This document shows, in pieces, positions 17,836-50,902 of a stretch of DNA of 64,000 nucleotides. Source of the DNA: Ancylobacter sp. WKF20 (GTDB lineage: Bacteria; Pseudomonadota; Alphaproteobacteria; Rhizobiales; Xanthobacteraceae); NCBI RefSeq assembly GCF_029760895.1, contig NZ_CP121679.1, positions 4,012,001 through 4,076,000 of the forward strand, written 5' to 3'. The translations under genes and the position numbers were made by a program. The notes below the pieces were generated by a model that ran no database searches, had not been told where the DNA came from, and saw only the letters and a list, made by a program, of their open reading frames with translations. Position 1 is the first letter of the stretch. The number at the start of each line of letters is the position of its first letter.

Positions 17836-18290
17836 GGGGTTCTCCTGGGCGGTCCCGTCGCAAGTCCCTTGGGGGCCGCCTCTGCGCTGATATGGGATCG
17901 GATCGCGCCGCCGCCAGAGAAAGGCACGCCGCCGCCACGGCGGGCCTTCGCGGGGCGGCATATCGGCAATTCACGCCAGCGTGAGCGGGTCCGCGCGAGT
18001 TATGACGCCGGCGCGGCTGGGCCGCGCCAGTTATGGCAACTCGGCGGCAGAGCTGCGCGTGCTCCGCATGGCAGCCAACTGTGCCGAGCGGTAGTCGGCG
18101 CGGCATTGCCGCTGGGGCATTAATGAAATATTACCCAAACAGTTCTAGCCTTGGCGTGATCAGCGTCCCGCAAGGTCGATGGCCGACACGGGCGGGGGCT
18201 GTTCGCGACCGTGGATGACCTGTACAGTCCGGGTGTGACCCGGGCCGGGCCTGCTCGTCGCCTGTATCGCCATGTGAGTAGAGACGCCTG
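17836..18290. promoter_or_regulatory. Divergent intergenic region, hsp20 / DUF2778
   Basis: A 455-base gap without a supportable gene. It holds a tight GC hairpin (GGCGCGGC/GCCGCGCC, 18010-18028, 3-base loop), an AT-rich patch at about 18121-18145 likely to be near the promoter of the DUF2778 gene, and an 8-bp palindrome CTGTACAG (18220-18227). Confidence 0.5.
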
Positions 18291-19322: not shown

Positions 19323-19493
19323 TTTCCTCGCCGTCTTGGCGTCCACGCCGACACCCCCGGTCGCGCGGCTCGGTACTGCGGCGCCGCGCGTTTTGGCTCG
19401 CGTCTTTGGTCGAATCAGGAATCGCTTCGCCGGCTCTTGAAAGCGGCCCCCTGCTGCTGCGATGCTTGTGCAATGCAGCAAGGAGGCCGAGCC

Positions 19494-20468: not shown

Positions 20469-20503
20469 AACGGGCGCGGTACACCGCCGCACAGGGTTTT
20501 CGC

Positions 20504-27315: not shown

Positions 27316-28668
27316 ATGAACGAGAACAGCCCGGCCGCCGGTGTCGCCGCGCAGCTTGCCGCGCGCATCGAGGCCAAGAGCGCCGTGATCGGCATCATCG
27401 GCCTCGGCTATGTCGGCCTGCCGCTGGCGCTGGTGGCTGTGGAAGCGGGCTTCCCGGTCATCGGCCTCGACATCAACCCGCGCCGGGTCGCCGAGATCGC
27501 CGCCGGCCGGCAGGTCATCAAATACATCCCCGCCGCGCGGATGGAGAGCGCGCTCGCCACCGGCCGCTTCACCGCGACGACCGATTTCGACCGCCTCGCC
27601 GAGTGCGACGCCATCATCATCTGCGTGCCGACGCCGCTGACCCGCCAGCGCGAGCCGGACCTGTCTTTTGTGGCCGACACTGCCCGCGCCATTGCTCGCA
27701 CCCTGCGGCCGGGCCAGCTCGTGGTGCTGGAATCGACGACCTGGCCCGGCACGACGGTGGAGGTGGTGAAGCCGATCCTCGAGGCGGGCGGGCTGGTCTC
27801 CGGCCGCGATGTCTTCCTCGCCTTCTCGCCCGAGCGCGAGGATCCCGGCAATGCCAGCTTCTCCACCGCCACCATCCCGAAGGTGGTGGGCGGCGACGGG
27901 GCGGTGGCCGGCGGGCTGGCGCAGGCGCTGTACCGTCCGCTGGTGAGCAAGGTGGTGCCGGTCTCGTCGACGCAGGTGGCCGAGGCCGCCAAGCTGACCG
28001 AGAACATCTTCCGCTCGGTCAACATCGCGCTGGTGAACGAGCTCAAGAGCGTCTACGGCGCCATGGGCATCGACATCTGGGAGGTGATGGAGGCGGCGGC
28101 GACCAAGCCGTTCGGCTTCATGCCGTTCTATCCCGGTCCCGGTCTGGGCGGGCACTGCATCCCTATCGACCCGTTCTATTTGACCTGGAAGGCGCGCGAA
28201 TTCGACATCGAGACGCGCTTCATCGAGTTGGCCGGGCAGATCAACACGCGCATGCCCTACATCGTCGTCGACCGTCTCGCCGAGGCGCTGGACCGCCATG
28301 CCGGGCGCGGGCTCGCCGGGGCGCGCATCCTCGTGCTCGGCGCCGCCTACAAGAAGAATGTCGACGACGTCCGCGAAAGCCCGGCGCTCAAGCTGATGGA
28401 GCTGATCGACGAGCGCGGCGGCCTCTGCGAATTTCATGACCCCTTCGTCGCCGCCCTGCCGCCGACCCGCCGCCACGCGCAGCTCAACGGCAAGGCCTCG
28501 CAGCCGCTGACCGTCGATCTCGTCAAGGGCGTCGATGCGGTGCTGGTCGCCACCGATCATGACGAGGTGGACTATGCGCTGGTGGCCCAGCACGCGCGCG
28601 TCATTGTCGACACGCGCAACGTCTTCACCCGCCTGAACCTGGCCCCGGCGGTGCTGGTCAAGGCGTAA
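27316..28668 (+). CDS. UDP-N-acetylglucosamine 6-dehydrogenase-type nucleotide sugar dehydrogenase
   Basis: Oxidises C6 of a UDP-sugar to a uronic acid using two NAD+. 450 residues: NAD-binding domain (IGLGYVGLPLA at about 29-40), central helical domain, and UDP-binding domain. The catalytic cysteine is Cys281 in GPGLGGHCIPIDPFYL. The pattern PGTT-x-E and SPEREDPGN fits the WbpA/TuaD-like UDP-GlcNAc or UDP-ManNAc dehydrogenase group better than UDP-glucose dehydrogenase. The likely use is an acidic sugar of a surface polysaccharide. It is convergent with a secreted polysaccharide lyase; no polysaccharide operon adjoins it directly. Confidence 0.85.
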   Translation: MNENSPAAGVAAQLAARIEAKSAVIGIIGLGYVGLPLALVAVEAGFPVIGLDINPRRVAEIAAGRQVIKYIPAARMESALATGRFTATTDFDRLAECDAIIICVPTPLTRQREPDLSFVADTARAIARTLRPGQLVVLESTTWPGTTVEVVKPILEAGGLVSGRDVFLAFSPEREDPGNASFSTATIPKVVGGDGAVAGGLAQALYRPLVSKVVPVSSTQVAEAAKLTENIFRSVNIALVNELKSVYGAMGIDIWEVMEAAATKPFGFMPFYPGPGLGGHCIPIDPFYLTWKAREFDIETRFIELAGQINTRMPYIVVDRLAEALDRHAGRGLAGARILVLGAAYKKNVDDVRESPALKLMELIDERGGLCEFHDPFVAALPPTRRHAQLNGKASQPLTVDLVKGVDAVLVATDHDEVDYALVAQHARVIVDTRNVFTRLNLAPAVLVKA

Positions 28669-29811: not shown

Positions 29812-32544
29812 TTGGCCGGTAACTTCTTCCGTTACGTCTGGCGGCACAGCCGGCGCGAGCAATTGATCGTGCTGATGTTCGTGCTCGTCTCGCTGCCCTT
29901 CTATTGGTGGTCGCTCGACGTTCCCAAGCGCATCGTCAACGAAGCCATTCAGGGCGACGTCTTCGCCCATGGCGAGACCTCCGCTCGCCTGTTCGACATC
30001 ACCCTGTCGCTGCCCGATTTCCTCGGCGGCTGGAGCTGGCACGTCACCGACGGGGTGATGCTCGCCCAGGTGCCCTATCTGTTCGCGCTGAGCATGGTTT
30101 TCCTCGTGCTCACGCTGATCAATGGCTGGTTCAAATACGTCATCAACATCCGCAAGGGCGTGCTCGGCGAGCGGATGCTGCGGCGGCTGCGCTTCGAGCT
30201 GTTCGCCCTCGCCATGCGCTTCCGCCCGGAGGATGTGCGCACCACCAAATCGGCCGAGGTCACCTCGATGATCAAGGACGAGGTGGAGCCGATCGGCGGG
30301 TTCTTCGGCGAGGCCTTCATCACCCCGGCCTTTCTCGGCACGCAGGCACTGACCGCCATGGCGTTCATCCTGACGCAGAATCTGTGGCTGGGAACGCTGG
30401 CGCTGGCGCTTATCCTCGTGCAGGGCATTGTCATCCCGCATCTGCGGCGCGAGCAGATCCGCCTCGGGCGGATGCGCCAGCTTGAATCGCGCGTGCTCGC
30501 CGGGCGCATCGGCGAGATGGTGGAGGCCGCGCCAGCCCTGCATGTCTACGGCGTCACCGGCTACACCGCCTCGGAGATCGGCAAGCGTCTCGGCACGCTG
30601 TTCGACATCCGCCTGCGGCTCTACCGCCGCAAATTCGCGGTGAAGTACCTCAACAACCTGCTGGCGCAGCTCACGCCCTTCATCTTCTACACGCTGGGCG
30701 GCTATCTCGCGCTGCAGGGCAAGCTCGACATCGGCCAGCTGGTCGCCGTTATCGCCGCCTATCGCGACCTGCCGACCCCGATCAAGGAACTGATCGACTG
30801 GGACCAGCAGCGCGCCGACGTGACGGTGAAATATGAGCAGGTGGTCGGGGCCTTCTCCAAGGAATTCCTGATGCCGAAGGAGCCGGCCGAGCCGCCGGCG
30901 CCGATCCCAGCCGACGCCCCGATCACGCTGGTCGGCCTGCGCGTCGTCAACGGGCGCGGCATCGTGCAGGTGGACCGCATGTCCGCCGCCATCGCCCGCC
31001 CGGCGCGTGTCGCGCTGGTCGGGCCCACGGGGAGCGCCCGGGACGTGATCCCCAAGGTGCTCGGCCGGCAGGTCACCGACTATCAGGGCAGCGCCACCCT
31101 CGGCAGCCACGAGATCGGCACGATGAACGACGCCGAGGCGAGCTCGGCGCTGCTCTATGTCTCCGGCGAGCCCTACATCATGTCCGGCACCATCCGGGAC
31201 AATCTATGCCTCGCCTTGCGCCGCGCGACGCCGCCGGAGGAGGAGCCGAAGGACAGCTGGGCGCGCTACTGGCGCGACGAGGCGCGGATGACGGAGAACC
31301 CCACCGTCTCCCCGGAGGCCGACTGGATCGACTATCGCGGCTTCGGCATCGAGGGGCCGGAGGCGCTCAACGCCGCCATCGTCGCCGCGCTGCGCGTGGT
31401 GCGCGGCTATGACGACATCTTCCGCGTCGGCATGAGCAGCCGGCTCGGCGACGAACTCGACCCGGCGGTGGCGGCGCGGCTGCTGGAGGCGCGCGGGGCG
31501 ATCCTCGCGCGTGTCGAGGCCAAGGGCATGGGCGGCTTTGTCGAGACCTTCATGCCCGACCACTTCAACACCAGTGCTTCGATCGGCGTGAACCTGCTGT
31601 TCGGCGTGTCCATCGGCTCGCGTTTTGCGCCGGAGAACCTGGCGCATGACCCGTTCGTGCGCTCGATCATCGCCGCCGAGGCGCTGGTCGGTCCGCTGAC
31701 CGCTATCGGGCTGAAAATGGTGGAGACGGTGGCGGAAGCCTTCCAGGGCCTCGCCGCCAACAACCCGCTGCGCGAGCGCTACTCCTTCATCGACGAAGCT
31801 GAGCTGGGCGAATTGTGGCCGCAGCTCCAGCAGACCTGGCAGCGCGGCCAGCGCCGGCAGTTCTCGCCGGAGCTGCGCGACAAGCTGATCGGCTACGCGC
31901 TGATGTATGTCGAGCCGCAGCACCGGCTGAACCTGATCGACGACCAACTCGTCGCCCGCGTGCTGCGGGCGCGGGCGAGCTTCCGCGAATTCCTGCCGGC
32001 GGCCGATGCCGACCAGATCGAGTTCTACGATCCCGGCCGGCTGATGCCGTCGGCCTCGATCCGCGACAATTTGCTGTTCGGCCGCATCCGCTACGGCAAG
32101 GTGCATATGCGCGAGAAGATCGTCGCTGCCGCCGCGCAGGTGCTGGACGAGCTGGATCTCGAGACCTTCGTGGTCTCGCGCGGCCTCGATCAGGAGGCGG
32201 GACCGGGCGGGCGCCTGCTCTCGCCGCAGCAGCGCGTGACGGTGCAACTCGCCCGCGCCATGCTGCGCCGGCCGGATATTCTCATCCTCGACGGCGCCCT
32301 CTCTAGCTTCGGAGCCGGAGAGGCGCATATGATCATGGAGAATATTTTTGCGGCGATGTCCGGGAAAACCGTCATTGCCACGCAGTCGAACGATGATGAA
32401 CTTGGTGCGTTCGATATGGTGATGACGTTCGAGGGAGCGAAACTCACCGGCATCGAACGCAAGGGAGGTGCCGAGGCGGCATCGCCCGAGGAGAGGGAGT
32501 CGGCGCCGCAGGCGGCGTCCGTTCCCAAGGAGGCTGTGAAATGA
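29812..32544 (+). CDS. ABC-exporter-like pseudo-ATPase with split, degenerate NBD
   Basis: 910 residues. Residues about 15-340 are a six-helix ABC exporter domain; about 375-480 begin an ATPase fold, but Walker A is GPTGSARD (residue ~402, no lysine). A ~290-residue region (about 480-740) without ATPase motifs follows. The fold resumes at about 745 with signature LLSPQQR (~802), Walker B DILILDGAL (Gly where Glu is expected) and H-loop ATQS (Gln for His). The stretch SGTIRDNL (~455) is echoed as SASIRDNLL (~743), as if the domain were split or duplicated. It should not hydrolyse ATP normally; a regulatory or channel-like role is likely. TTG 29812 start with AGGAAAGG upstream. It overlaps the next gene by four bases. 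Confidence 0.8.
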   Translation: MAGNFFRYVWRHSRREQLIVLMFVLVSLPFYWWSLDVPKRIVNEAIQGDVFAHGETSARLFDITLSLPDFLGGWSWHVTDGVMLAQVPYLFALSMVFLVLTLINGWFKYVINIRKGVLGERMLRRLRFELFALAMRFRPEDVRTTKSAEVTSMIKDEVEPIGGFFGEAFITPAFLGTQALTAMAFILTQNLWLGTLALALILVQGIVIPHLRREQIRLGRMRQLESRVLAGRIGEMVEAAPALHVYGVTGYTASEIGKRLGTLFDIRLRLYRRKFAVKYLNNLLAQLTPFIFYTLGGYLALQGKLDIGQLVAVIAAYRDLPTPIKELIDWDQQRADVTVKYEQVVGAFSKEFLMPKEPAEPPAPIPADAPITLVGLRVVNGRGIVQVDRMSAAIARPARVALVGPTGSARDVIPKVLGRQVTDYQGSATLGSHEIGTMNDAEASSALLYVSGEPYIMSGTIRDNLCLALRRATPPEEEPKDSWARYWRDEARMTENPTVSPEADWIDYRGFGIEGPEALNAAIVAALRVVRGYDDIFRVGMSSRLGDELDPAVAARLLEARGAILARVEAKGMGGFVETFMPDHFNTSASIGVNLLFGVSIGSRFAPENLAHDPFVRSIIAAEALVGPLTAIGLKMVETVAEAFQGLAANNPLRERYSFIDEAELGELWPQLQQTWQRGQRRQFSPELRDKLIGYALMYVEPQHRLNLIDDQLVARVLRARASFREFLPAADADQIEFYDPGRLMPSASIRDNLLFGRIRYGKVHMREKIVAAAAQVLDELDLETFVVSRGLDQEAGPGGRLLSPQQRVTVQLARAMLRRPDILILDGALSSFGAGEAHMIMENIFAAMSGKTVIATQSNDDELGAFDMVMTFEGAKLTGIERKGGAEAASPEERESAPQAASVPKEAVK

Positions 32545-33056
32545 CCATCGAGGACGAGGTCCGGTCCCTCCAGAAGTTCCGGATGTTCCACAATGTCGAG
32601 ACCGCCAAGCTCAAGCTGATGGCGATGATCGCCGACCGGGTGGTGTTCCATCCCGGTGAGGTGATCTATGCGCAGGGCGATGCCTCGGACGCGGTCTACA
32701 TCGTGCTGGACGGCCAGTTCAAAGTGTCGCTCAACACCAGCGCCGGCGTGATCGACTTCGCCGAGCATGTGCGCGGCGCGCTGCTGGGCGAGGCGGGCGT
32801 GCTGTGCGACCAGGTGCGCATGGCCACCATCACCGCCGAGACGACGGTGACGGCGCTGCGCATCGACCGCGAGCCCTTCCTGCAGCTGCTGCACGAATCC
32901 CAGCCCTTCAACCATGCGGTGATGCGCGAGCTCGGCCGGCAGATCATGGACCTCAACAACATCTGCGCCCAGCTGGTCCAGCGCCTGCCCAAGGGCACGC
33001 CGGCGGCCGATGCGGGGCGCCACATCGCCGCTCCACCGACATCGCCGGTGCATTGA
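32541..33056 (+). CDS. Stand-alone cyclic nucleotide-binding protein
   Basis: 171 residues forming a CAP_ED domain (about 10-140): FHPGEVIYAQGDASDAVYIVLDG then the phosphate-binding cassette GEAGVLCDQVRMATITA, with the Glu and Arg that bind ribose and phosphate retained. There is no C-terminal helix-turn-helix, so it is not a Crp-type transcription factor; a disordered tail (about 150-171) follows. It is translationally coupled (ATGA) to the pseudo-ABC gene and lies 7 bases ahead of the cyclase gene. The likely role is the cyclic-nucleotide receptor that acts on the pseudo-ABC protein (inference). Confidence 0.85.
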   Translation: MTIEDEVRSLQKFRMFHNVETAKLKLMAMIADRVVFHPGEVIYAQGDASDAVYIVLDGQFKVSLNTSAGVIDFAEHVRGALLGEAGVLCDQVRMATITAETTVTALRIDREPFLQLLHESQPFNHAVMRELGRQIMDLNNICAQLVQRLPKGTPAADAGRHIAAPPTSPVH

Positions 33057-33063
33057 CCGCTCC

Positions 33064-34803
33064 ATGGCGCTGACCTCGACCACTCCCCCAGCCGAGGCGG
33101 CGATTGGAACGCGCGGGGATCTGCGCGATCTTCCCTGGGCGTGCATGGCGCGGCTGTGGTCCGGCATCGTGCTGTTCGTCTTCGTGCTGACGCACCTGTT
33201 GAACCACGCTGTCGGCATCTTCGGCGTCGGGGCAATGGAATATGCCCAGCAATGGCGCTGGCTGCTCTGGCAGTCCTGGCCGGGCACGGTGCTGCTCTAT
33301 GGCTCGGTCGCCATCCACATGGTGCTGTCCGCCTACCGCATCACGCTGCGGCGCACCTGGCGGATGCCGAAGGACGAGGCATGGCAGATCGTCTCCGGCC
33401 TCGCCATTCCGTTCCTGATCGTCGGCCACATCGTGAACACCCGCGTCGCCGGCTCCTGGTTCGGCGCCGATATCGGCTATCAGGGCGTGCTCGTTCGCAT
33501 GTTCCCGGCGGCGGTGTTCTCGCAGTCCATGCTGCTCATCATGTCGTGGAGCCATGGGGTGATCGGCCTGCACCACGCGCTGCGCTACCAGCACTGGTAT
33601 CGCAGCGCGCGGGTTGCCGGGCTCGTGCTGGCGGTGCTGATCCCCTTCCTCGCCATGGCGGGCTTCATCGCCGCCGGGCGCGAGGCAGCGCAGGCCGGCC
33701 CGCCGGCGCCGCGCACGCCCGAGCAGCAGGCCGGTCTCGACCGCATCGACATGATGCTGACCAGCGGCGTCGCCGGCTTCGCGCTCGGCTTTGTCGGGCT
33801 GATGGGCGTGTTCTACATCCGCCGCCGCGTCGGCAACACCATCACCATCACCTATCGCGGCTACGGCCCGGTGGACGTGCCCTCCGGCACCTCGGTGCTG
33901 GAGGCGAGCCGGATGCACCACATCCCGCACCCCTCGACCTGCCGCGGCCGCGGGCGCTGCTCGACCTGCCGGGTGCAGATCCTCGCCGGCGCCGATGAGC
34001 TTCCCGAGCCCTTCGGCGCCGAGCGCGCGGTGCTGGCGAGCATCGGCGCGCCCAGCTCGGTGCGCCTCGCCTGCCAGATCCGCCCGGCGCACAGCCTGTC
34101 GGTGCGCGTGCTGATGCCGGTGCTCGGCCATCGCTTTGGCGGCGATCTCGACGCGGAAGCGCGCGAATGGGCGATGGAGCGCGATGCCACCGTGCTGGTG
34201 CTCGATGTGCGCGCCTTCACCACGCTTACCCATAACCGCCTGCCCTATGAGATCGCCGTTCTGGTCAACCGCTTCTCCGCCGAGATGACGCAGACGGTGG
34301 AGAGCCATGGCGGGCGCGTCGACCAGATGTTCGGCGACGGGCTGATGGCGGTGTTCGACGCCTCGGACAAGCCGGCAAGCGGCGCCCGCGCCGCGCTGCG
34401 CGCCGCCCGCGACATGGCGCGGGTGCTCGATCTGCTGAACTCGGAAATGCGCGGCGTGCTGCCGATCCCGATCCGTGCCGGCATCGGCGTGCATACCGGC
34501 TCCATCGTGCTGGCCCGCGTCGGCGACGGGCTGGATGACAATCTCATCCGCGCCATCGGTAATACAGTGGCGGTGTCCTTCGCGCTGGAAGCGGCCTCGA
34601 AGGAGTTCCTGGCCGATTACGTGATCTCGGCCGAGACGGCCAAGGCATCGGGTTTCGATTTCTCGCAGCTGCAGCCGCGTGAGGTGACGGTGGATTCCAA
34701 CGGCATGAGCGTGACCGCCTATGCGGTGCCGGACGCGGCGACGCTCGACGCGGTCATGGCCGGCGGGGTAATGCTCGGTATGCTCGGAGCGGCGAGGGGC
34801 TAG
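33064..34803 (+). CDS. cyaC: CyaC-type membrane redox cyclase (diheme anchor, 2Fe-2S, class III cyclase)
   Basis: 579 residues in three parts. Six transmembrane helices (about 30-255) carry His44, His48, His85, His122, His164, His170 and His171, as in the diheme anchor of succinate-quinone reductases. A ferredoxin domain (about 260-350) has Cys293, Cys299, Cys302 and Cys337. A class III cyclase domain (about 375-560) follows. The order matches Sinorhizobium meliloti CyaC, a quinone-responsive adenylate cyclase. Metal-binding Asp381 and Asp425 are present, but the ATP-selecting Lys is Gln421, its partner Asp is Asn500, and the transition-state Asn and Arg are Ala503 and Ala507, so activity and product are uncertain. 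ATG 33064 lacks a clear ribosome-binding site; the longer 33010 frame overlaps the previous gene. Confidence 0.82.
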   Translation: MALTSTTPPAEAAIGTRGDLRDLPWACMARLWSGIVLFVFVLTHLLNHAVGIFGVGAMEYAQQWRWLLWQSWPGTVLLYGSVAIHMVLSAYRITLRRTWRMPKDEAWQIVSGLAIPFLIVGHIVNTRVAGSWFGADIGYQGVLVRMFPAAVFSQSMLLIMSWSHGVIGLHHALRYQHWYRSARVAGLVLAVLIPFLAMAGFIAAGREAAQAGPPAPRTPEQQAGLDRIDMMLTSGVAGFALGFVGLMGVFYIRRRVGNTITITYRGYGPVDVPSGTSVLEASRMHHIPHPSTCRGRGRCSTCRVQILAGADELPEPFGAERAVLASIGAPSSVRLACQIRPAHSLSVRVLMPVLGHRFGGDLDAEAREWAMERDATVLVLDVRAFTTLTHNRLPYEIAVLVNRFSAEMTQTVESHGGRVDQMFGDGLMAVFDASDKPASGARAALRAARDMARVLDLLNSEMRGVLPIPIRAGIGVHTGSIVLARVGDGLDDNLIRAIGNTVAVSFALEAASKEFLADYVISAETAKASGFDFSQLQPREVTVDSNGMSVTAYAVPDAATLDAVMAGGVMLGMLGAARG

Positions 34804-34806
34804 CGC

Positions 34807-36711
34807 GTGGCAAGGCCGGGAGAAGAGGACAAGGTGATGCCATCCTCGGGGGCGGGCACGGATGTGCTGCGCATCGAGGATCTGAGGATTTCCTTCGTCA
34901 CCCATGGCCAGCTCACCGAGGTGGTCAAGGGCGTGTCGCTGCGCGTGCCGGCCGGCAAGACCGTGGCGCTGGTCGGCGAGAGCGGATCGGGCAAGACCGT
35001 GATCTCGCAGGCCATCATGGGCCTGCTGCCGCGCAACGGCGTGGTCGAGGGCGGGCGCATCCTGTTCGCCGATCCCGCCCCCGGCGGCAAGACGCTGGAC
35101 ATCGCCACCCTCTCGCGCGACGGGCGGACCATCCGCAAGCTGCGCGGTGGGCGCATCGGCATGATTTTCCAGGAGCCGATGTCCTCGCTCTCGCCGGTCC
35201 ACACCATCGGCAACCAGATCGAGGAGGCGCTCCAGCTTCACCGGCCGCATCCGCGCCGCGACGCGCGGGCGGTGACGGAGAAGATGCTGGGGCTGGTGGG
35301 CTTTCGCGACCCGCACCGCTCCTATGACCAGTACCCATTCGAGCTGTCCGGCGGCCTGCGCCAGCGCGCCATGCTGGCCATGGCGCTGATCTGCCAGCCG
35401 GCGCTGCTCATCGCCGACGAACCGACCACGGCGCTCGATGTCACCATCCAGGCGCAGGTGCTCAAGCTGATGAAGGATCTCCAGGCCGAAATGGGCATGG
35501 CGATCCTCCTCATCACCCATGACCTCGGCGTCGTCGCCAACATGGCCGACGAGGTGGTGGTGGTCTATCGCGGGCAGGTGATGGAAGCCGGCACGGTGGA
35601 TGACGTGTTCCGCCACCCGGAGCACCCCTATCTCAAGGCGCTGCTGAAGGCCTCGCCGGATTTCGACATGAAGCCGGGCGAGCGGCTGGTGGCGCTGCGC
35701 GAGGTGGCCCCCGTCCTGCCCAAGGGCTTCGGTCGCCGGGAGACCAACGCCAACACACCGGCGCTGCTCACCGTGCGCAACCTGCGCAAGAGCTATGGCG
35801 CGAAGAACAACCGCGTCGTCGCGGTGGAGGATGTCAGCTTCGACGTGGCGCGCGGCCAGTGCCTCGGGCTGGTCGGCGAGAGCGGCTCGGGCAAGACCAC
35901 GGTCGGCCACATGATCATGCGCTCGCGCAGCGCCGATGGCGGCTCGGTCGTGTTCAATGACGGGTCCGGGCCGGTGGATGTGCTGGCGCTGAACGAAGCG
36001 CAGCTGCGCGATTTCCGCCCGCGCATGCAGATGATCTTCCAGGATCCGGTGTCCTCGCTCTCCCCGCGCATGACCGTGCTCGACATCATCCGCGAGCCGC
36101 TGATCATCCAGAACCGCGGCACTGAGGCCGAGCAGAAGCGCCGGGCGGTGGAGCTGATGGAATGCGTCGGGCTCGATCCGCGCTTTCTCAGCCGCTACCC
36201 GCACAGCTTCTCCGGCGGCCAGCGCCAGCGCATCGGCATCGCCCGCGCCCTCGCGCTCAACCCGGACCTCATCATCTGCGACGAGCCGGTCTCGGCGCTC
36301 GACGTCTCCGTGCAGGCGCAGGTGCTGAACCTGCTGAAAGACCTTCAGGCCTCGCTCGGCCTCACCTATTTCTTCATCTCGCATAATCTCGCGGTGGTGC
36401 ACTACATGGCGGCGCGCATCGCGGTGATGGCGCGCGGGCGCCTCGTCGAGATCGGCCCGCGCGAGGCGATCTTCCACCGCCCGGCGCATCCCTATACGCG
36501 CACCCTGCTCAAGGCCGTGCCGCTGCCCGATCTCGACCGGCGGCTGGATTTCGCCACCTGCGTGCCCACCGGCGGCGCGTCCGACCCGGCCAGCTGGCCG
36601 GAGGAGTTCCGCCCGGCGGGGGCGGGGCGGCTCGGGCTGATCGACCTCGGCGGCGGCCATTGCGTGCTGGCCGACCAGGACTGCACCGCCCGCGACCTGA
36701 CGGCGGCGTGA
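34807..36711 (+). CDS. Peptide-type ABC importer, fused dual ATPase
   Basis: 634 residues with two complete ATPase domains, equivalent to fused OppD and OppF. Domain 1 (about 18-290) has [16 protein letters not shown] and LLIADEP; domain 2 (about 318-580) has [16 protein letters not shown] and LIICDEP. Both end in oligopeptide-transporter C-terminal regions ([22 protein letters not shown]). Both sites look active, in contrast to the pseudo-ATPase upstream. The start could be GTG 34807 (GAGGGG upstream, three bases after the cyclase stop) or ATG 34837. It is co-directional with the cyclase genes and probably in the same transcript. Confidence 0.9.
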
Positions 36712-36718
36712 GGGCGAC

Positions 36719-38662
36719 ATGCGGCGGTGCCTTCCCCTGAGCCTGTTACTCGCTTTTCTCGCGGCGCTGACGAGCGTGCGGGCAGAGGCGCGCGGGCGCG
36801 ACCTCTCCAAGGAGCCGCCGGTCTTCGTGCGCGCCATTCTGGAAGGGCAGCTTCCCCCGCTGGCCGAGCGCCTGCCGGAAAACCCGCGCGTGATCGACCT
36901 GCCCGCCCTGGGCCGCACGCCCGGCCACTATGGCGGCACGCTGCGCATGCTGATGGGCGACCAGAAGGACATCCGCTTCGTCACCATTTACGGCTATGCC
37001 CGGCTCGTGGTGTTCGACACCCAGGGCAACCTCGTGCCGGACATTCTCGACAGCGTGGACGTGCAGGAGGGCCGGATCTTCACCCTGCATCTGCGCAAGG
37101 GCCATCGCTGGTCGGACGGCGAGCCCTTCACGGCGGAGGACTTCCGCTACTGGTGGGAGGATGTCGCCAATAATGACCGGCTCAGCCCCGGCGGGCCGCC
37201 TATGCAGATGGTGGTGCAGGGCGAGGCCGCCCGCTTCGAGGTGATCGACGCCACCACGGTGCGCTACAGCTGGTCGATGCCCAATCCGGGCTTCCTGCCG
37301 GCGCTGGCGGGCGCGCAGCCGCTCGTCATCGCCATGCCCGCCCATTACATGGAGCAGTTCCACCAGAAATACGCCGATCCGCTTAAGCTCTCGGCGCTGA
37401 TCAAGCTGGAGCGGGTGAAGGACTGGACGGCGCTGCATGACCGCATGGCGCGCGCTTACCGGCCGGAGAACCCGGATCTGCCGCTGCTCGGACCGTGGGT
37501 CCCGAAGACCGAACCGCCGGCGGAGTTCTTCATCTTCAAGCGCAACCCGTTCTACCACCGGGTGGATGAGGAGGGCCGGCAGCTGCCCTATATCGACGAG
37601 ATCACCATGTCGATCGGCACCTCCTCGCTGATCCCGGCCAAGGTGACGGCGGGCGGAGCGGACCTGCAGGCGCGCTACATCTCCTTCGCCGATTACACCT
37701 TCCTCAAGGCCGCCGAGGCGCGCGGCCATTACAAGGTGCGGCTCTGGGAGCGCGGCGAGGGCGCCTTCGTGGCGCTGGCGCCCAATCTCAATGTGAAGGA
37801 CGCGACGTGGCGCGCGCTGCTGCGCAATGTCGATGTGCGCCGCGCGCTCTCCGTGGCGATCAACCGGCACGACATCAACCAGGTGATCTTCTTCGGCCTC
37901 GGCCATGAAGGCGCCAACACGGTCATCCCCGGCAGCCCGCTCTACAAGGAGAGCTACGACCAGGCCTGGTCGCAATATGACCCGGCGCTCGCCAACAAGC
38001 TGCTCGACGCCGCCGGCCTCGACAAGCGCGACAGCGACGGCTTCCGCCTGCTGCCCGACGGGCGGCGGGCGGAGATCACCGTGGAGACCTCCGGCGACAA
38101 CATGGAGGAGACCGACATCCTCGAACTGGTCGCCCATGACTGGTACAAGGTCGGCATCCGCCTCTTCGTGCGCGGCACCCAGCGCGACCTGCTGCGCCGC
38201 GGCGTCATCGCCGGCAATGTGATGATGGCGGTGTGGCCCGGCATGGACAACGCCATTCCCGGCCCGGACATGTCGCCCGACGCGCTGGCGCCGACCAATT
38301 CCATGCAGTTCCAGTGGCCGCTCTGGGGCCAATATGTCGACAGCAGCGGCCGCGAGGGCGAGAAGCCCGCTCTGCCGGCGGCGCAGGAACTGATCGACCT
38401 CGCGAAGAAGTGGCGCCAGTCCATCACCAGCGCGGAGCGCGCCGCCATCTGGACGCGGATGCTGGAGATCAATGCCGACGAGGTGTTCACCATCGGCATC
38501 GTCAACCGCATCTCCCAGCCGGTGATCGTCAGCGACAAGCTGCGCAACGTGCCCGATGTCGGCATCTACAGCTTCGAGCCGGGCGCCTATTTCGGCATGT
38601 ACATGCCCGACACCTTCTGGTTCGACGACGGAACCTCCACGCTCGACGTGACCAGGGATTGA
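36719..38662 (+). CDS. Family 5 extracellular solute-binding protein
   Basis: Periplasmic substrate receptor of the peptide-type importer, 647 residues, with a signal peptide (core about 6-20, then RAEARG). It has the family 5 features: LRMLMGDQKDIRF, the GHRWSDGEPFTAEDFRYWWEDV signature at about 117-138, and the C-terminal WPLWGQYVDS. At 647 residues it is longer than DppA or OppA (about 540) and nearer to YejA-like or MppA-like members. Substrate unknown; peptides, opines or glycosides are transported by relatives. The order ATPase, binding protein, permeases is itself a little unusual. It starts 7 bases after the ATPase gene. Confidence 0.88.
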   Translation: MRRCLPLSLLLAFLAALTSVRAEARGRDLSKEPPVFVRAILEGQLPPLAERLPENPRVIDLPALGRTPGHYGGTLRMLMGDQKDIRFVTIYGYARLVVFDTQGNLVPDILDSVDVQEGRIFTLHLRKGHRWSDGEPFTAEDFRYWWEDVANNDRLSPGGPPMQMVVQGEAARFEVIDATTVRYSWSMPNPGFLPALAGAQPLVIAMPAHYMEQFHQKYADPLKLSALIKLERVKDWTALHDRMARAYRPENPDLPLLGPWVPKTEPPAEFFIFKRNPFYHRVDEEGRQLPYIDEITMSIGTSSLIPAKVTAGGADLQARYISFADYTFLKAAEARGHYKVRLWERGEGAFVALAPNLNVKDATWRALLRNVDVRRALSVAINRHDINQVIFFGLGHEGANTVIPGSPLYKESYDQAWSQYDPALANKLLDAAGLDKRDSDGFRLLPDGRRAEITVETSGDNMEETDILELVAHDWYKVGIRLFVRGTQRDLLRRGVIAGNVMMAVWPGMDNAIPGPDMSPDALAPTNSMQFQWPLWGQYVDSSGREGEKPALPAAQELIDLAKKWRQSITSAERAAIWTRMLEINADEVFTIGIVNRISQPVIVSDKLRNVPDVGIYSFEPGAYFGMYMPDTFWFDDGTSTLDVTRD

Positions 38663-38665
38663 GCC

Positions 38666-39667
38666 ATGCTGCTGCGCTACATCCTCCGCCGCGTGCTCAT
38701 CATGATCCCGACGCTGCTGGTCACCAGCGCGCTGATCTTCACCGTGATGGAGCTGCCGCCGAGCGACTATTTCGAGACCTATGTCGCGGAAATGGCGGCG
38801 CAGGGCGAGAAGGCGGACACCAGCCGCATCGAGTTCCTCAAGCGCGAATATGGCTTCGACAAGCCCGCCATCGAGCGCTACTTCCTCTGGGTCACCGGCT
38901 TCGTGCAGGGCGATTTCGGCTACTCCTTCGAGTACGAAATGCCGGTGCGCGACGTGGTCGGCGAGCGCCTGGCCCTCACCGTGCTGGTCTCGGTCTGCAC
39001 CATCCTGATGACCTGGGCCGTCGCCTTCCCGATCGGCATCTATTCGGCCACCCACCAATATAGCTGGGGCGATTACGGGCTGACCTTCCTCGGCCTGCTC
39101 GGCATCGCCGTGCCGCACTTCCTGCTGGCGCTGATCTTCATGTATTTCGCCAATGTGTGGTTCGGCCTCTCCATTGGCGGGCTGATGGACCCGGTCTATT
39201 TCAACCAGCCGATGAGCTGGGCGAAGGCGCAGTCGATCCTCGCCCATCTCTGGATTCCCGTCATCATCATCGGCGCCGGCGGCACCGGGACGATGGTGCG
39301 CGCCATCCGCGCCAATCTGCTCGACGAGCTGCAGAAGCAGTATTACGTGACCGCCAAGGCCAAGGGCCTGCCGCCGGGCAAGGCGCTGCGCAAATACCCG
39401 CTGCGCATGTCGCTCAACTTCTTCGTCTCGCACATTGGCGACGTGCTGCCGAGCATCGTCTCCGGCTCGGAGCTGACCGCCGTCGTGCTCTCGCTGCAGA
39501 CCACCGGGCCGCTGCTGCTGCGCGCGCTGCAGAGCCAGGACATGTATCTGGCCGGCTCCTTCCTCTTGTTCCTGTCCTGCCTCACGGTCGTCGGCGTGCT
39601 GATCTCCGACATCGCGCTCGCCTTCCTGGATCCGCGCATCCGGCTTCAGGGGGGCAGCACGAAATGA
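38666..39667 (+). CDS. Peptide-type ABC permease, DppB-like
   Basis: 333 residues, inner-membrane permease of the DppB/OppB family, starting MLLRYILRRVLIMIPTLLVTS. The first helix (about 10-30) is followed by a periplasmic region containing EYGFDKPAIERYFLWVTGFVQGDFGYS, then five helices. The ATPase-docking loop is in YVTAKAKGLPPGKALRKYPLR. It begins 3 bases after the binding protein gene and overlaps the next permease by four bases (ATGA), consistent with one heterodimeric channel. Confidence 0.9.
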   Translation: MLLRYILRRVLIMIPTLLVTSALIFTVMELPPSDYFETYVAEMAAQGEKADTSRIEFLKREYGFDKPAIERYFLWVTGFVQGDFGYSFEYEMPVRDVVGERLALTVLVSVCTILMTWAVAFPIGIYSATHQYSWGDYGLTFLGLLGIAVPHFLLALIFMYFANVWFGLSIGGLMDPVYFNQPMSWAKAQSILAHLWIPVIIIGAGGTGTMVRAIRANLLDELQKQYYVTAKAKGLPPGKALRKYPLRMSLNFFVSHIGDVLPSIVSGSELTAVVLSLQTTGPLLLRALQSQDMYLAGSFLLFLSCLTVVGVLISDIALAFLDPRIRLQGGSTK

Positions 39668-40863
39668 GCGCGCCCGCCGCCCCCGATCTCGCGTCCGCCT
39701 TGCCGCCGGCCGGCGCGCCGCTGCCGCATTACGTCGCTACCGGCGCCTTCGACCCCAAGGCGATGGAGCCGATGACCCCTGAGCAGGAGCGGGTCACCCT
39801 CGCCTCCCAGCTCACGCTGATGTGGTGGAAGTTCAAGCGCCACCGGCTGGCGCTCGCTTCCGGCATCTTCCTCGCCGTGCTCTATGCGGCGATCCTGATC
39901 TGCGAATTCCTCGCGCCCTATAACTACCAGGAGCGCCATACCGACTTCATCCGCAGCCCGCCGCAGGCTATCCACCTGTTCCATGAAGGCAGCTTCATCG
40001 GGCCGTTCACCTATGGGCTGAAATACAAGCTCGACATGGACACGCTGCGCCGGACCTACACCGAGGACACCAGCCGCGTGTACCCGGTGCGGTTCTTCTG
40101 CCGGGGCGACCGCTACCAGTTCTGGGGGCTCATCGAAGGCAACCGGCACCTGATGTGTCCGGGCGAGGGCGGCACGCTGTTCCTGCTCGGCACCGACCGG
40201 CTGGGCCGCGACATGCTCTCGCGCCTCATCTATGGCGCGCGCATCTCGCTGACCATCGGCCTCATCGGCATCGCCGTGAGCTTCACGCTCGGCGTCGTGA
40301 TCGGCGGTCTCGCCGGCTATTATGGCGGGCTGTTCGATCTTCTGGTGCAGCGGGTGATCGAGGTCGTGCAGTCGCTGCCGCATATCCCGCTCTGGCTGGC
40401 GCTCTCTTCCATCATGCCGCCAAGCTGGAGCCCGATCGTGGTCTATTTCGGCATCACCGTCATCCTCGGCCTGATGGACTGGACCGGGCTCGCCCGCGCC
40501 GTGCGCTCCAAGCTTCTGTCGCTGCGCGAGGATGATTATGTCGTCGCCGCCCAGCTCATGGGCGCGCGCACGCCGCGCATCGTGTTCCGCCATCTCGTGC
40601 CCGGCTTCATGAGCCACCTCATCGCCATGGCGACCATCGCCATTCCCTCGATGATCCTCGGCGAGACCGCGCTGTCCTTCCTCGGCCTCGGCCTGCGCCC
40701 GCCGATCACAAGCTGGGGGGTGATGCTGAACGAGGCGCAGAACATCAACATCGTCGTGCTCTATCCCTGGCTGATCCTGCCGGTGGTGCCGGTGATCGCG
40801 GTGATCCTCGCCTTCAACTTCCTCGGCGACGGCCTGCGCGACGCGGCCGACCCCTATCGCTGA
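39664..40863 (+). CDS. Peptide-type ABC permease, DppC-like, with enlarged periplasmic loop
   Basis: 399 residues of the DppC/OppC family. After a cytoplasmic N-terminus and helix 1 (about residues 57-78) comes a periplasmic stretch of about 100 residues (about 80-178, including RSPPQAIHLFHEGSFIGPFTYG), longer than in typical DppC. Then come the conserved LGTDRLGRDMLSRLIYGARISL and the docking loop YVVAAQLMGARTPRIVFRHLVP. The start at ATG 39664 overlaps the upstream stop; a longer frame back into the previous permease is not real. The enlarged loop may fit the large binding protein. Confidence 0.9.
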   Translation: MSAPAAPDLASALPPAGAPLPHYVATGAFDPKAMEPMTPEQERVTLASQLTLMWWKFKRHRLALASGIFLAVLYAAILICEFLAPYNYQERHTDFIRSPPQAIHLFHEGSFIGPFTYGLKYKLDMDTLRRTYTEDTSRVYPVRFFCRGDRYQFWGLIEGNRHLMCPGEGGTLFLLGTDRLGRDMLSRLIYGARISLTIGLIGIAVSFTLGVVIGGLAGYYGGLFDLLVQRVIEVVQSLPHIPLWLALSSIMPPSWSPIVVYFGITVILGLMDWTGLARAVRSKLLSLREDDYVVAAQLMGARTPRIVFRHLVPGFMSHLIAMATIAIPSMILGETALSFLGLGLRPPITSWGVMLNEAQNINIVVLYPWLILPVVPVIAVILAFNFLGDGLRDAADPYR

Positions 40864-40876
40864 GTTGGGAAACCGC

Positions 40877-41398
40877 ATGTCCGAAATCTCGACGTCTGGC
40901 CTGTCGCGCCTTGAGAAGACGCTGTTCCGGCTGGAGGCGCAGCATGCCTGCCTTGGCTATGCCTTTGACGCCATCGCCACTCTCCCCGGCCCGGTGGTGG
41001 AATTCGGCCTCGGCCTCGGTCGCACCTTCGATCACCTGCGCCGCCATCTGCCGGACCGGGAGATCTACGTCTTCGACCGGGTGAACAAGGCCTATTCCGA
41101 CTGCCAGCCGGACCCGGCGCATCTCATCCTCGGCGAGATCGAGGAAACGCTGCCCCCGCTCGCCCTGCGCCTTGCCGGGAGAGTGGTGCTGGCCAATGCG
41201 GATCTCGGCTCGTTCGATCGCGAGAGCAACCGGGCGGTGGCGGCGATGTCCGCCCGCCTGCTGCCGCCGCTCATCGCGCCGGGCGGGTTCATCATGTCCG
41301 ACCTGCCGCTGGAACTGCCCGGTTTCGAGACAGTGCCGCTGCCGGCCGGGGCGCGCGAGGGGCGCTATTATCTCTACCGGCGTCCGGTCTCAAGCTGA
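40877..41398 (+). CDS. SAM-dependent methyltransferase-like protein
   Basis: 173 residues with a class I methyltransferase-type motif I (VVEFGLGLGRTFDHLRRHLP) and motif II (DREIYVFDR), then ALRLAGRVVLANADLG and LIAPGGFIMSDLPLELPG. It resembles the small S-adenosylmethionine methyltransferases of the Methyltransf_17 type. The substrate is unknown. ATG 40877 is preferred to TTG 40865, with GGGA six bases upstream. It is the last gene of the eight-gene run and its 3' end overlaps the convergent glycosyltransferase gene by 25 bases, which may couple their expression. Confidence 0.7.
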   Translation: MSEISTSGLSRLEKTLFRLEAQHACLGYAFDAIATLPGPVVEFGLGLGRTFDHLRRHLPDREIYVFDRVNKAYSDCQPDPAHLILGEIEETLPPLALRLAGRVVLANADLGSFDRESNRAVAAMSARLLPPLIAPGGFIMSDLPLELPGFETVPLPAGAREGRYYLYRRPVSS

Positions 41399-43320
41399 TC
41401 GCCCAGCGCGACGAAGCGCGCGGCGCCTGAATCCAGCAGCCGGCCGATCATCGTGTCGAGGAAGCGGTCGATCCAGCCATCATGCACGAGGTGGTGGGTG
41501 AGCAGGCCGATAGGCTCCAGCGTGCCCGGCGGTGATGCCAGTTCCTCGGTGATGAGGCCGGCCATCAGGTCGATCAGCCCGGCCTCGTCGGCGAGTCCGC
41601 CGCCGCCCTTCCAGTCGATCGGATCCCAATGGGTGTTGAGCGCGACCAGCCCCGGCGCAGCCTCGCGCGTCGTGCGGCGCTTGAAGGTGGAGAGCGCGGC
41701 ATAGCCCTCATTCGCCAGCATGGGCAGGAGCGCCGGCGCGATGCGGTTCCAGGGCGGCACGAAGACCGGCAGCGCCTGCGCGCCGAACGTCGCCTCGATC
41801 CGTTCGCGGGCGCTGTGGGCTTCGACGGCCATCACCTCGGCAAGGCGATGCGCGCCGAATTCGGCCTTCTTCTGATCGGCCGGGGCGTGGTTTTCATGGG
41901 CGAGACCGTGCACGAGCACGTCGACGCGCCGCTCCTCCCGCAGCCGTGCGGCCAGCGCCGGGGTGGCGCGGGCGGGGATGACGGCGAGCGAGAGCGGCAC
42001 CTGCCAGCGGGCGGCGCGGGCGAGCAGCGCGTCGAGCGCCGGGGTTGGAGCCACAGCGTCATCGTCGCGCCACCAGAAATCGAGGATGCGCCCGGCCGCG
42101 CGGGCTTGCGCGAGCACAGCATCCAGCCGCTGCCATGCGGCCTCCACCCGGTCGCGGTGGGCGAGAAGGTCGCTCAGCACGGTCGCGGTGCGGGAGGCGC
42201 CGTCGCGGCCGATGGCGGACCAGTCGGGCCGGGGGGCGGCGAGGAGATCGCGAGCGGCTTCGGTCAATGCCGGCGCCGTCAGCGTCTCCAGCGCCAGCAC
42301 GCGGGCAAGGCCGCGCCGGGCGAGTTCGCCGGCGCGCAGGGTCTGTTCCTTCTCCGCCCCCTCCGCGAAGGGCACGAGAATGGCGCGCGCATTGGCGGCG
42401 GCAAGGTCCAGCACCGTGTTGTAGCCGGCCTGACTGATCGACAGCGCCGCGCGGGCGAGCAGCGCCGGAAAGTCCGGTCGCGCCCGCTCCACCACCATAT
42501 TGAGCGGGGCAAGCGTGGCGAGCGCATCGAAGGCTTCCGGCGAGACACCCGCGCCGATCAGCAGGCGCCAGCGCCGCTCCGGCATCAGGCGGGCCGCCTC
42601 CACCGTCAGCCGGGCAAGCGGCAGGCCGGCCGCCGAGCCGCCACCGGAGACGAGAATCTCGTCGGTGCCGTCAGGACCGGTCGCCTCTGCCGCCCGCGCG
42701 CCGTCATGCACATAGCCGGTCTCGATCAGCCGCCGTTCCAGCGCCGGCGTGCTCGGCCAGGAGGCGCTGAGCGGCACGACACCGGCGGCGCCGTGGAACA
42801 GCACGCCGTCATAGAAGGCCCCTAACTTGGCGAGGGCCTGTTCCGCCCGGTGCGGCCGCGAGGGCGGGTTCAGCACGTCGCGGATCGAGCCGAGGATGAG
42901 CGGGCGCGGCGTCTGGTTCTGGGCATGGGCGAGCAGGGCGTCGAACTCCGACGCCAGCGAGCGGCGGCCGAGCGGGTAGAGCTCGGTGATGAGCACATCG
43001 GGTGCCGCCGCATCGAAGGCGGCCAACAGCGCCCCGCGCCGCGCGGCGAAGTGGCCTGCATCCGCCAGCACGCCCGGCGCCGCATAGAGCGTGGCGAAAT
43101 CCGTGCCGACGCAATGGACCGGGGGAAGCTGGACGAGGGTGCAGCCTTGCGTGTTGACGGTCGCGGCCGGGCGCCCGCCCGAGACCAGCGTGACCGCCCA
43201 TCCCGCGCCGGCTAGCGCGCGTCCCACCGCCGCCATGCGGGCGAGATGGCCGACGCCGAGCAGATGCGTCACGGCGATCAAGAGGCGCGGGCGGCGGGAT
43301 GAATCTGTCATGGGGCTCAT
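41374..43320 (-). CDS. Glycosyltransferase fused to polysaccharide-deacetylase-like domain
   Basis: 648 residues. Residues about 10-385 are a GT-B glycosyltransferase of MurG/GT28 type (LLGVGHLARMAAVGRAL near the start, EILVSGGGSAAG, SQAGYNTVLDLAAANARAILVPF). Residues about 405-640 look like a NodB-type carbohydrate esterase: WWRDDDAV (metal Asp), HGLAHENH (His-x3-His) and VPPWNRIAP. The fusion suggests one protein both transfers and deacetylates an N-acetylated sugar. Last gene of a four-gene minus-strand cluster, coupled (ATGA) to the gene upstream. Neither signal peptide nor helix is seen, so it probably works on the cytoplasmic side. Confidence 0.8.
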   Translation of the reverse strand: MSPMTDSSRRPRLLIAVTHLLGVGHLARMAAVGRALAGAGWAVTLVSGGRPAATVNTQGCTLVQLPPVHCVGTDFATLYAAPGVLADAGHFAARRGALLAAFDAAAPDVLITELYPLGRRSLASEFDALLAHAQNQTPRPLILGSIRDVLNPPSRPHRAEQALAKLGAFYDGVLFHGAAGVVPLSASWPSTPALERRLIETGYVHDGARAAEATGPDGTDEILVSGGGSAAGLPLARLTVEAARLMPERRWRLLIGAGVSPEAFDALATLAPLNMVVERARPDFPALLARAALSISQAGYNTVLDLAAANARAILVPFAEGAEKEQTLRAGELARRGLARVLALETLTAPALTEAARDLLAAPRPDWSAIGRDGASRTATVLSDLLAHRDRVEAAWQRLDAVLAQARAAGRILDFWWRDDDAVAPTPALDALLARAARWQVPLSLAVIPARATPALAARLREERRVDVLVHGLAHENHAPADQKKAEFGAHRLAEVMAVEAHSARERIEATFGAQALPVFVPPWNRIAPALLPMLANEGYAALSTFKRRTTREAAPGLVALNTHWDPIDWKGGGGLADEAGLIDLMAGLITEELASPPGTLEPIGLLTHHLVHDGWIDRFLDTMIGRLLDSGAARFVALGDQLETGRR

Positions 43321-44438
43321 TCTGCACAGCCCTGCGGCAAGGCGATGTCACAGGCGCCAAATGCCGCCTTCAGGGTCGCTGCCGCCTTGGGCAGGTCACG
43401 CTCGGCGGCGATGAAGCGGGCGGCGGCCTCGCCCATGGCGCGCCGGCGCGCCGGGGTGGTGATGAGGTCGATCAGCGCCGCGCGGAAGGCGGGGATGTCG
43501 CCGGCGGGAGTGATGAGGCCGGTCGTGCCGGGGAGCATCGTGTCGGCGATGCCGCCATAGCCGCTGGCGAGGCAGGGCAGGCCATGCGCCTGCGCTTCCA
43601 GATACACCGCGCCGAACGCCTCGTTCACACCCGGCCAGACGAAGACATCGGACGCATGGAACAGGGCGCCGAGCGCCGCGCGATCGGTGATTGCGCCATG
43701 GAAGCGCACGCGGCCCCCGAAACGCACGAAGGCGGTCTCGACCTCGGCGCGCGCCGGGCCGTCGCCGATGATGTCGAGCGTCCAGGGCGCCTCGACGCCG
43801 GCCAGCGCCTGCGCCAGCTGGCGGTAGGAGGCGAGCTTGTCGCCCGGCCGCATCATGGCCAGCGTGACGAGGCGGGTCGGCCCGGCGTCGCGTGGTTCGG
43901 CAGCCGCCCCGGCCAGGGGCCAGTCGGCAAGATCGAGGAAGGGCTTGAGATCGATGACACGCTGATGCAGGGGGCGCAGCCGGTCCAGCACCTCGCGGTC
44001 GGCGGCTGTGGGCGTGAGGATGAGCGTCGCCGCGTCCATCGCCGCCTCCGCCCGTGCGTGGCCTTCCGCGAAGGGGCCCGTCGCGCGCTTCGGGGCGCGC
44101 GAAGCTTCCGCGATCACATAGGGCACGCCGAGTTGTGCCGCGAGGGCGGGGCCGATCAGGTCCGGCGCCTTGTAATAGACGTGGTAGGTGAAGACGCAGG
44201 CGATCTCCGCCGGCCGGGTGGCGGCGAGGATGCGCTCCACCTCCTGCGCCGCTTCCCGCTCCAGCGCCGCCCAGTCCACCCGTGCCGGATCGGTATGGAA
44301 GCTGCGGAAGGGGGAGGCCAGCTCCGCCTCATAGCCGCTATGGCGCAGCAGCTTGAGGAACAGCCGCGCCATGGTCCTGTCGCCCGAGGGCACCGGGTGG
44401 TCCGGCGATTTCAGCGGCGCGAGGAACAGGCAGCGCAT
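43317..44438 (-). CDS. GT4-type glycosyltransferase
   Basis: 373 residues, GT-B fold. The C-terminal half has GDGPARAEVETAF, VRFHGAITDRAALGALFHASDVFVWPG, NEAFGAVYLEAQAHGLPCLASGYGG, the donor-binding E-x7-E type motif of GT4 enzymes. The N-terminal half has MRCLFLAPLKSPDHPVPSGDR. Donor and acceptor are unknown. It sits 3 bases downstream of another GT4 gene and overlaps the fusion gene that follows, so the four proteins are probably made together to build one surface glycan or glycolipid. Confidence 0.85.
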   Translation of the reverse strand: MRCLFLAPLKSPDHPVPSGDRTMARLFLKLLRHSGYEAELASPFRSFHTDPARVDWAALEREAAQEVERILAATRPAEIACVFTYHVYYKAPDLIGPALAAQLGVPYVIAEASRAPKRATGPFAEGHARAEAAMDAATLILTPTAADREVLDRLRPLHQRVIDLKPFLDLADWPLAGAAAEPRDAGPTRLVTLAMMRPGDKLASYRQLAQALAGVEAPWTLDIIGDGPARAEVETAFVRFGGRVRFHGAITDRAALGALFHASDVFVWPGVNEAFGAVYLEAQAHGLPCLASGYGGIADTMLPGTTGLITPAGDIPAFRAALIDLITTPARRRAMGEAAARFIAAERDLPKAAATLKAAFGACDIALPQGCAE

Positions 44439-44441
44439 GGC

Positions 44442-48230: not shown

Positions 48231-48238
48231 ACGCTCGC

Positions 48239-49460: not shown

Positions 49461-49467
49461 GGCCGCC

Positions 49468-50319: not shown

Positions 50320-50345
50320 GGCGGTTCGCTCGCGTGAGTGGGACG

Positions 50346-50892: not shown

Positions 50893-50902
50893 TGGGGATG
50901 AC

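Follow-up and report, generated by a model that had tools for sequence, protein, structure and literature searches.

A possible redox-sensing pseudoenzyme relay beside a glycan locus in Ancylobacter

Pycsar pairs combine a cyclase domain with a membrane protein that binds cyclic nucleotides (cNMP). The ABC exporter fold is also known as a regulatory subunit, and not a pump, in SUR1 and SUR2 of the ATP-sensitive potassium (KATP) channels, and SUR proteins still bind nucleotides. In the TIGR03896 family (bacteriocin-type transport-associated protein), a protein with two cyclic-nucleotide-binding (CNB) domains is encoded near the genes of an ordinary ABC transporter. For CyaC of Sinorhizobium meliloti (SMc01818), the published study describes a six-helix membrane anchor with two haem B, a 2Fe-2S cluster, a class III cyclase domain, and a response to respiratory quinones (PMC10463352). 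Here, we analysed a 64,000-nucleotide stretch (positions 4012001-4076000, hereafter the window) of the single-contig 4.63-Mb genome of Ancylobacter sp. WKF20, in which the gene for a CyaC-type protein follows those for an ABC-exporter-like protein (the pseudo-ABC protein) and a stand-alone CNB protein. We tentatively propose, with a confidence slightly short of even, that these proteins form a redox-sensing pseudoenzyme relay that serves a glycan locus and is inherited with it as one functional unit. The open reading frames (ORFs) of the module, including an insert in the nucleotide-binding domain (NBD) of the first protein, are as follows:

29812-32544, + strand: pseudo-ABC protein, 910 aa, TTG start (ORF, Pfam, and motif alignment)
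31240-32046, + strand: insert codons (about residues 477-745) within the pseudo-NBD (hhalign repeat test)
32541-33056, + strand: stand-alone cNMP-binding (CNB) protein, 171 aa (ORF, Pfam)
33064-34803, + strand: CyaC-type protein, 579 aa, predicted pseudocyclase (ORF, Pfam, and residue columns)

All three ORFs were confirmed on the + strand at 29812-34803. The tight packing given in a preliminary description of this DNA was found in the sequence, in which the pseudo-ABC and CNB genes share an ATGA overlap (32541-32544) and 7 bases separate the CNB stop from the ATG at 33064. The CyaC-type frame is also open from an ATG at 33010, which gives a protein of 597 aa.

Pfam places Fer2 at residues 288-359 and Guanylate_cyc at 392-530 of the CyaC-type protein. 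Active class III cyclases have D-K-D-T-N-R in six alignment columns, for which the window protein has D-Q-D-R-A-A by both hmmalign and MAFFT; the residues concerned are D399, Q439, D443, R514, A521, and A525 (597-aa numbering). Both metal-binding Asp are present (D399 and D443); the substrate-defining Lys and Thr/Asp and the transition-state Asn and Arg are gone, with Q439, R514, A521, and A525 in their places. Judged by these residues, the domain is predicted to be a dead enzyme. In the S. meliloti study, the K410/T484A and R495A/N491A variants of CyaC either served as inactive forms or were silent (PMC10463352); the window residues were equated with these positions on spacing, and not on an alignment with the S. 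meliloti protein. The preliminary description had spoken of a membrane cyclase with a histidine-rich anchor and a ferredoxin domain; the anchor histidines and Fer2 are confirmed, but the catalytic residues are lost.

The sensor part is retained. The anchor residues H62, H66, H103, H140, and H182, which would bind haem, and the ferredoxin residues C311, C317, C320, and C355, which would hold a 2Fe-2S cluster, each occur in at least 43 of 44 cyclase rows, a count that leaves out one locus (L043) whose contig ends within the gene. Homologue lists comprised the best 120 of 4319, 4873, and 1141 matches. Among the best 120 listed relatives of the window protein, all five histidines and all four cysteines are present in 118, and the cyclase residues are lost to different extents: Lys in 120, Asn in 108, Arg in 50, and all three in 41. 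The two metal-binding Asp are retained in 113 and 107 of them. An intact relative (L107) served as control: of its best 120 listed homologues, 117 have the residues complete. Lys and Asn are absent from 14/14 Ancylobacter orthologues, and Arg is also absent from 12 of these.

Purifying selection acts on the locus. In four pairwise comparisons, the ratio of nonsynonymous to synonymous substitution rates (dN/dS) was 0.08-0.27 for the cyclase domain and 0.04-0.68 across all segments, and the low values for the cyclase domain suggest that the degenerate domain is kept for something. The loss of several catalytic motifs could also mean that these are functionless, decaying genes. This is the least probable of the alternatives and is contradicted by the selection pattern in all segments, by the sensor residues kept in nearly all listed relatives, and by full-length open frames in 14/14 congeneric genomes, where the lone TAA (in G024, locus L011) is the codon directly past the open frame.

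Loss of catalytic residues affects two of the three proteins. In the 910-aa protein, Pfam reports ABC_membrane at 90-315 and ABC_tran at 743-829. It has the type IV transmembrane domain (residues ~1-345) and the NBD fold of an ATP-driven ABC exporter, but not the scored catalytic motifs. In Walker A, Lys is replaced by R410 and Ser/Thr by D411, the Q-loop Gln by G452, the signature LSGGQ by LSPQQ (803-807), the Walker B Glu by G828, and the H-loop His by Q858. The earlier statement that all ATPase motifs are lost thus holds for all six scored motifs, except that the Walker B Asp survives (D827). The NBD is interrupted by a helical insert of ~270 aa (~477-745), which contains two diverged copies of one unit, each ending in a Q-loop-like 'ASIxxNLLFG' motif (hhalign of 500-640 against 641-780: probability 98.3, E 1.6e-14; transmembrane control segment, about 0.1). 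A GK[ST] Walker A occurs in 0/99 aligned relatives. A catalytically intact founder of the family was sought, and none was found in these 99 rows; the least degenerate (L103) keeps 3/6 scored motifs. A side branch with a divergent transmembrane part (L195-L199) has open frames of 863-1016 codons and the same degenerate NBD with insert, and its transmembrane part is barely or not matched by the profile. L195-L198 have no CNB match nearby; in L199, a CNB match (49 bits) lies on a 359-aa ORF that starts 0.9 kb downstream. In L223 and L224, the match is confined to the transmembrane part.

The 171-aa protein matches cNMP_binding alone, and no DNA-binding domain was detected in it by Pfam, in agreement with the preliminary description. 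Its phosphate-binding cassette has both Glu and Arg (GEAGVLCDQVRMAT), so by its pocket residues it is a putative cyclic-nucleotide receptor. A linkage test set beforehand, the recurrence of pseudo-ABC with CNB, was passed. In 79/80 loci (the best 80 of 588 confirmed matches in genome_contigs, among which near relatives dominate), a CNB ORF lies adjacent to the pseudo-ABC ORF and ends 436-585 bases past it. The exception, L110 (9878-14449), has no CNB gene, and its CyaC-type ORF directly follows the pseudo-ABC ORF; it represents a natural test case for direct coupling without CNB. Among 47 further regions from searched genomes (L126, L127, and L222 fell below threshold and were omitted), CNB is adjacent in 25 and fused to the pseudo-ABC C-terminus in 15, together 40/47, and the remaining 7 are relatives with a divergent transmembrane part or with that part only. 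A few genomes occur both in the 80-locus set and among these regions, and some strains are near-identical. One-frame fusions of about 1020-1250 codons were seen in L119-L123, L125, L130, L205-L208, and L215-L218. For the fused L122 protein, structure prediction gave a mean predicted local distance difference test (pLDDT) of 77.8 and a predicted template modelling score (pTM) of 0.61, and its domain placement was not used, as no inter-domain confidence was available. A further cell-envelope link is a gene for a transglycosylase-SLT protein, located about 170 bases past the CNB gene at L070 (13241-14413) and at many loci of Microvirga.

Class III cyclases recur near this pair. Seven congeneric genomes (G004, G005, G016, G020, G022, G024, and G027) carry further pseudo-ABC paralogues, which are 44-59% identical. 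In the five genomes that were fetched, the paralogue is fused to CNB (L123, L130, L122, L125, and L120/L121), likewise without ATPase motifs; those of G024 and G027 have long open frames (1111 and 1309 aa). More than one PF00211 match occurs in precisely these seven genomes, and the degenerate domain is the only such match in 7/14 congeneric genomes with the module, the window genome included. The distance from the paralogue to a cyclase domain is at most 3 kb in 5/7 genomes and at most 7.5 kb in 7/7. This domain is intact, with a CHASE2 sensor (L121), in G020 and G022; Asn and Arg are kept and Lys is absent in G004, G024, and G027 (dCache-HAMP, L123); Lys and Asn are absent in G005 and G016. 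The pseudo-ABC/CNB pair is thus repeatedly found near class III cyclase domains, whose sensor parts are of several kinds. Since the extra PF00211 matches lie close to the paralogues, there is good support for linking the pair to class III cyclase genes, although many of the encoded cyclases are unusual. The candidate recurrent module of the preliminary description is upheld in this respect and by the adjacency or fusion of CNB. Genes of one neighbour cluster recur beside the module where no CyaC was scored (L046, L075, L114, L116, L117, L118, and L121); the L118 member is an MBL-fold (metallo-beta-lactamase) hydrolase (Lactamase_B_2), possibly a phosphodiesterase.

A quick pseudo-ABC tree was built from 74 rows chosen from 127 scored loci by thinning Microvirga, Bosea, and Ancylobacter. 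Loci with degenerate CyaC fall in one clade of 29 (SH-like approximate likelihood ratio test, SH-aLRT, 99), of which two members, L043 and L058, had no CyaC scored. Four loci with intact cyclase residues and canonical CNB pockets (L062, L066, L094, and L107) lie outside this clade. The tree requires a minimum of one change between intact and degenerate CyaC, and the state of these four is taken as ancestral. Within the degenerate clade, the CNB pocket Arg is lost in three groups (L043 with L050, a Bosea group, and L042 with L045), and the whole CNB gene in L110. Glu is replaced and Arg lost in the Bosea group, L042, and L045; Glu is kept and Arg changed to Tyr in L043 and L050; Glu is lost and Arg kept in L211. 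Three loci outside the clade that were scored as lost (L202, L206, and L216) have Asp for Glu and keep Arg. The pattern would be expected if the ligand site decayed once the ligand maker had done so, but it is no proof of that order.

These results bear on the chain proposed in the preliminary description, in which an active CyaC-type cyclase senses quinone redox state and makes a nucleotide that is read by CNB, with the pseudo-ABC protein as the output. It suits L062, L066, L094, and L107, where an intact CyaC-type cyclase accompanies canonical CNB and pseudo-ABC, and the coincidence of extra cyclases with paralogues also speaks for it. For this organism it is improbable. The step from redox state to nucleotide is not supported for the window: the genome's sole PF00211 match has lost Lys, Thr, Asn, and Arg, comparable S. 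meliloti variants are described as inactive or silent (PMC10463352; matched by spacing), and among the paralogue-side cyclases only those of G020 and G022 are intact. In the window lineage, the chain must work without cyclic AMP (cAMP) from this protein.

A second alternative is that CNB binds a cyclic nucleotide of other source, from an unrecognised cyclase class or uptake, and that the pseudocyclase only tunes the system or senses ATP. It is the strongest of the rivals, although still unlikely. The pocket Glu and Arg are retained in Ancylobacter, both metal-binding Asp persist in the window cyclase domain, and PF00027 has three further matches in the genome, one of them to a protein resembling a cyclic-nucleotide-gated (CNG) channel. 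On the other side, no PF01295 or PF01928 match was found in the genome, its lone PF00211 match is degenerate, and pocket decay elsewhere in the clade suggests that the ligand became dispensable there. Elsewhere in this genome (L133 and L134), a CNG potassium channel-like protein and another stand-alone CNB protein (pocket GEMALLTETKRPAT) are encoded, and no intact cyclase was recognised in the genome.

Downstream of the module lie an importer with a family 5 solute-binding protein (SBP-5; 34807-40863, + strand) and a cluster of four glycosyltransferases on the opposite strand (41374-47118):

34807-36711, + strand: oligopeptide-type (SBP family 5) importer ATPase with dual NBD
36719-38662, + strand: family 5 solute-binding protein (PF00496; Pfam)
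38666-40863, + strand: two importer permeases (BPD_transp_1; Pfam), the second within ORF 39157-40863
41374-43320, - strand: glycosyltransferase family 28-like protein b
43317-44438, - strand: GT4-like glycosyltransferase
44442-45806, - strand: GT4-like glycosyltransferase
45778-47118, - strand: glycosyltransferase family 28-like protein a (GT28a)

Only 3 bases separate the CyaC-type stop (34803) from the earliest possible start of the next ORF (GTG, 34807), so the string of genes continues into the importer. The window GT28a is 55% identical to the GT28a that lies divergent from pseudo-ABC-CNB in Microvirga (L070). In the fetched flanks of 100 loci with at least 6 kb on each side, a GT28 match was found in 74, GT4 in 60, and SBP-5 in 63. 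The GT28 profile collects both GT28-like genes, and the SBP-5 count is safer than that of the dual ATPase (79/100), which is inflated because the pseudo-ABC protein itself or other ABC ATPases were counted in some loci. The same 14/30 congeneric genomes hold pseudo-ABC (at least 70% identity), PF00211, GT28a (at least 71%), and SBP (at least 71%); the other 16 have none of these parts at the thresholds used, except for a 33% SBP relative in G003. In a single-gene tree, built on a housekeeping gene (a serine hydroxymethyltransferase paralogue), presence of the module changes at least 5 times, and a single clade for the 14 is rejected (approximately unbiased test, p-AU 0.0026). Matching presence together with repeated gains and losses indicates that the parts come and go together. 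On this block inheritance, the functional unit is probably larger than three genes and would include the SBP-5 importer and the four glycosyltransferases. The target named in the preliminary description, the pseudo-ABC protein, would then not be that protein alone but probably the glycan and importer locus inherited with it.

The neighbourhood also bears on two further alternatives. The 910-aa protein might still carry out transport, driven by a gradient or by an active ABC partner with which it forms a heterodimer, as its exporter fold would allow. We consider this improbable, slightly more so than the chain with an active cyclase: the genes tested in 29812-47118 yielded no second exporter-type subunit, the importer there comes with permeases of its own, and the fused paralogues lack ATPase motifs too. 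A Pycsar-like defence function, with a cyclase and a cNMP-binding membrane effector, is very improbable. The CNB and cyclase domains do match PADLOC models for Pycsar or TIR effectors (E 8e-15 to 9e-5), but the catalytic residues are missing, no PADLOC model matches the pseudo-ABC protein, and the locus is tied to importer and glycosyltransferase genes across many genera. The PADLOC similarity is at the domain level only, and the competent cyclase and known effector type of a Pycsar system were not found; assignment as a defence system was rejected.

Upstream, a polysaccharide lyase (PF14099; 28695-29708, - strand) is divergent from the module, and its position is occupied by genes of one cluster in 20 loci, including Ancylobacter and some Bosea. 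A UDP-sugar dehydrogenase (27316-28668, + strand) lies farther upstream. No Pfam match was found for nine long ORFs tested (18120-20492 on the - strand, 47208-48242 on the - strand, and 48396-61442); some overlap others and may be spurious calls.

In the proposed relay, a three-protein membrane module would control the glycan-assembly cluster and the SBP-5 importer. The CyaC-type protein would keep its redox sensor (the CyaC di-haem type anchor and the 2Fe-2S domain) and make no cAMP, and by analogy with S. meliloti CyaC it may respond to the quinone pool. Its degenerate cyclase domain would serve as an output domain that is responsive to redox state and possibly to nucleotides. CNB would be the partner of the pseudocyclase and the regulatory subunit of the pseudo-ABC protein, of which it forms the C-terminal domain in other lineages. 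The pseudo-ABC protein, unable to power transport, would be a scaffold or gate in the membrane. The CNB subunit would determine its conformation, and the pseudo-ABC protein would regulate the adjoining glycan and importer machinery. The more specific version, which we regard as possible but doubtful, is that direct contact between proteins, and no diffusible messenger, conveys respiratory redox state to the surface-glycan and importer machinery; that CNB lost cNMP binding in several lineages; and that the relay derives from a working cAMP circuit that survives in sister lineages.

Several points weigh against this proposal. Arg is not lost in 70 and Asn not in 12 of the best 120 listed window-type relatives, for which altered chemistry instead of death is possible. 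With Glu and Arg retained in the CNB pocket of Ancylobacter, the ligand in this genus may still be a cyclic nucleotide. A sign test for CNB-pocket loss after cyclase loss fits in direction, but 2 independent pairs are too few for significance. GT28 has no match in the fetched flanks of 26 of the 100 loci, gene order and strand of the importer and glycosyltransferases vary between genera, and several branches of the one-gene tree are weak. The link to glycan synthesis is based on neighbourhood and co-inheritance, and no biochemistry on the module was found in the open-access literature searched.

The locus contains what looks like an undescribed effector type for cyclic-nucleotide signalling, an ABC-exporter fold with an attached CNB. 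Related lineages hold intact, half-decayed, and fully decayed versions, which makes the transition directly testable and gives a stepwise view of how an enzyme-based second-messenger circuit may become a pseudoenzyme relay with its redox sensor retained. The module would also offer a first handle on an unassigned alphaproteobacterial glycan locus, and it points to an undescribed route by which a respiratory signal passes to the cell surface.

Compared with known systems, the module is of the kind that joins a cyclase to a cNMP-binding membrane effector; its effector type and pseudoenzyme state were not found described, and the open-access literature searched gave no title that deals with either a pseudo-ABC/CNB module or a CyaC-type pseudocyclase. 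S. meliloti CyaC has the same domain plan as the window protein, and it is described, together with CycR and Clr, as an active cyclase that is encoded next to TetR-type (CycR) and LysR genes and binds transcription factors (PMC10463352). The window protein, in contrast, lacks the active-site residues and is encoded beside CNB and pseudo-ABC genes. Relative to Pycsar, the module has no catalytic residues, a different effector, and a neighbourhood of glycan genes. The CNB protein matches TIGR03896 weakly, at 38 bits, far under the cut-off of 161. Unlike the type IV (ABCB-like) exporters MsbA, BmrA, and McjD, the pseudo-ABC protein lacks the Walker A Lys/Ser, Q-loop Gln, signature, catalytic Glu, and switch His, and it has a duplicated 270-aa NBD insert and a CNB partner or domain. 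SUR2 chains came up in the comparison of the pseudo-ABC protein, which differs from SUR1 and SUR2 in that its nucleotide motifs are gone and a CNB subunit stands in the regulatory place.

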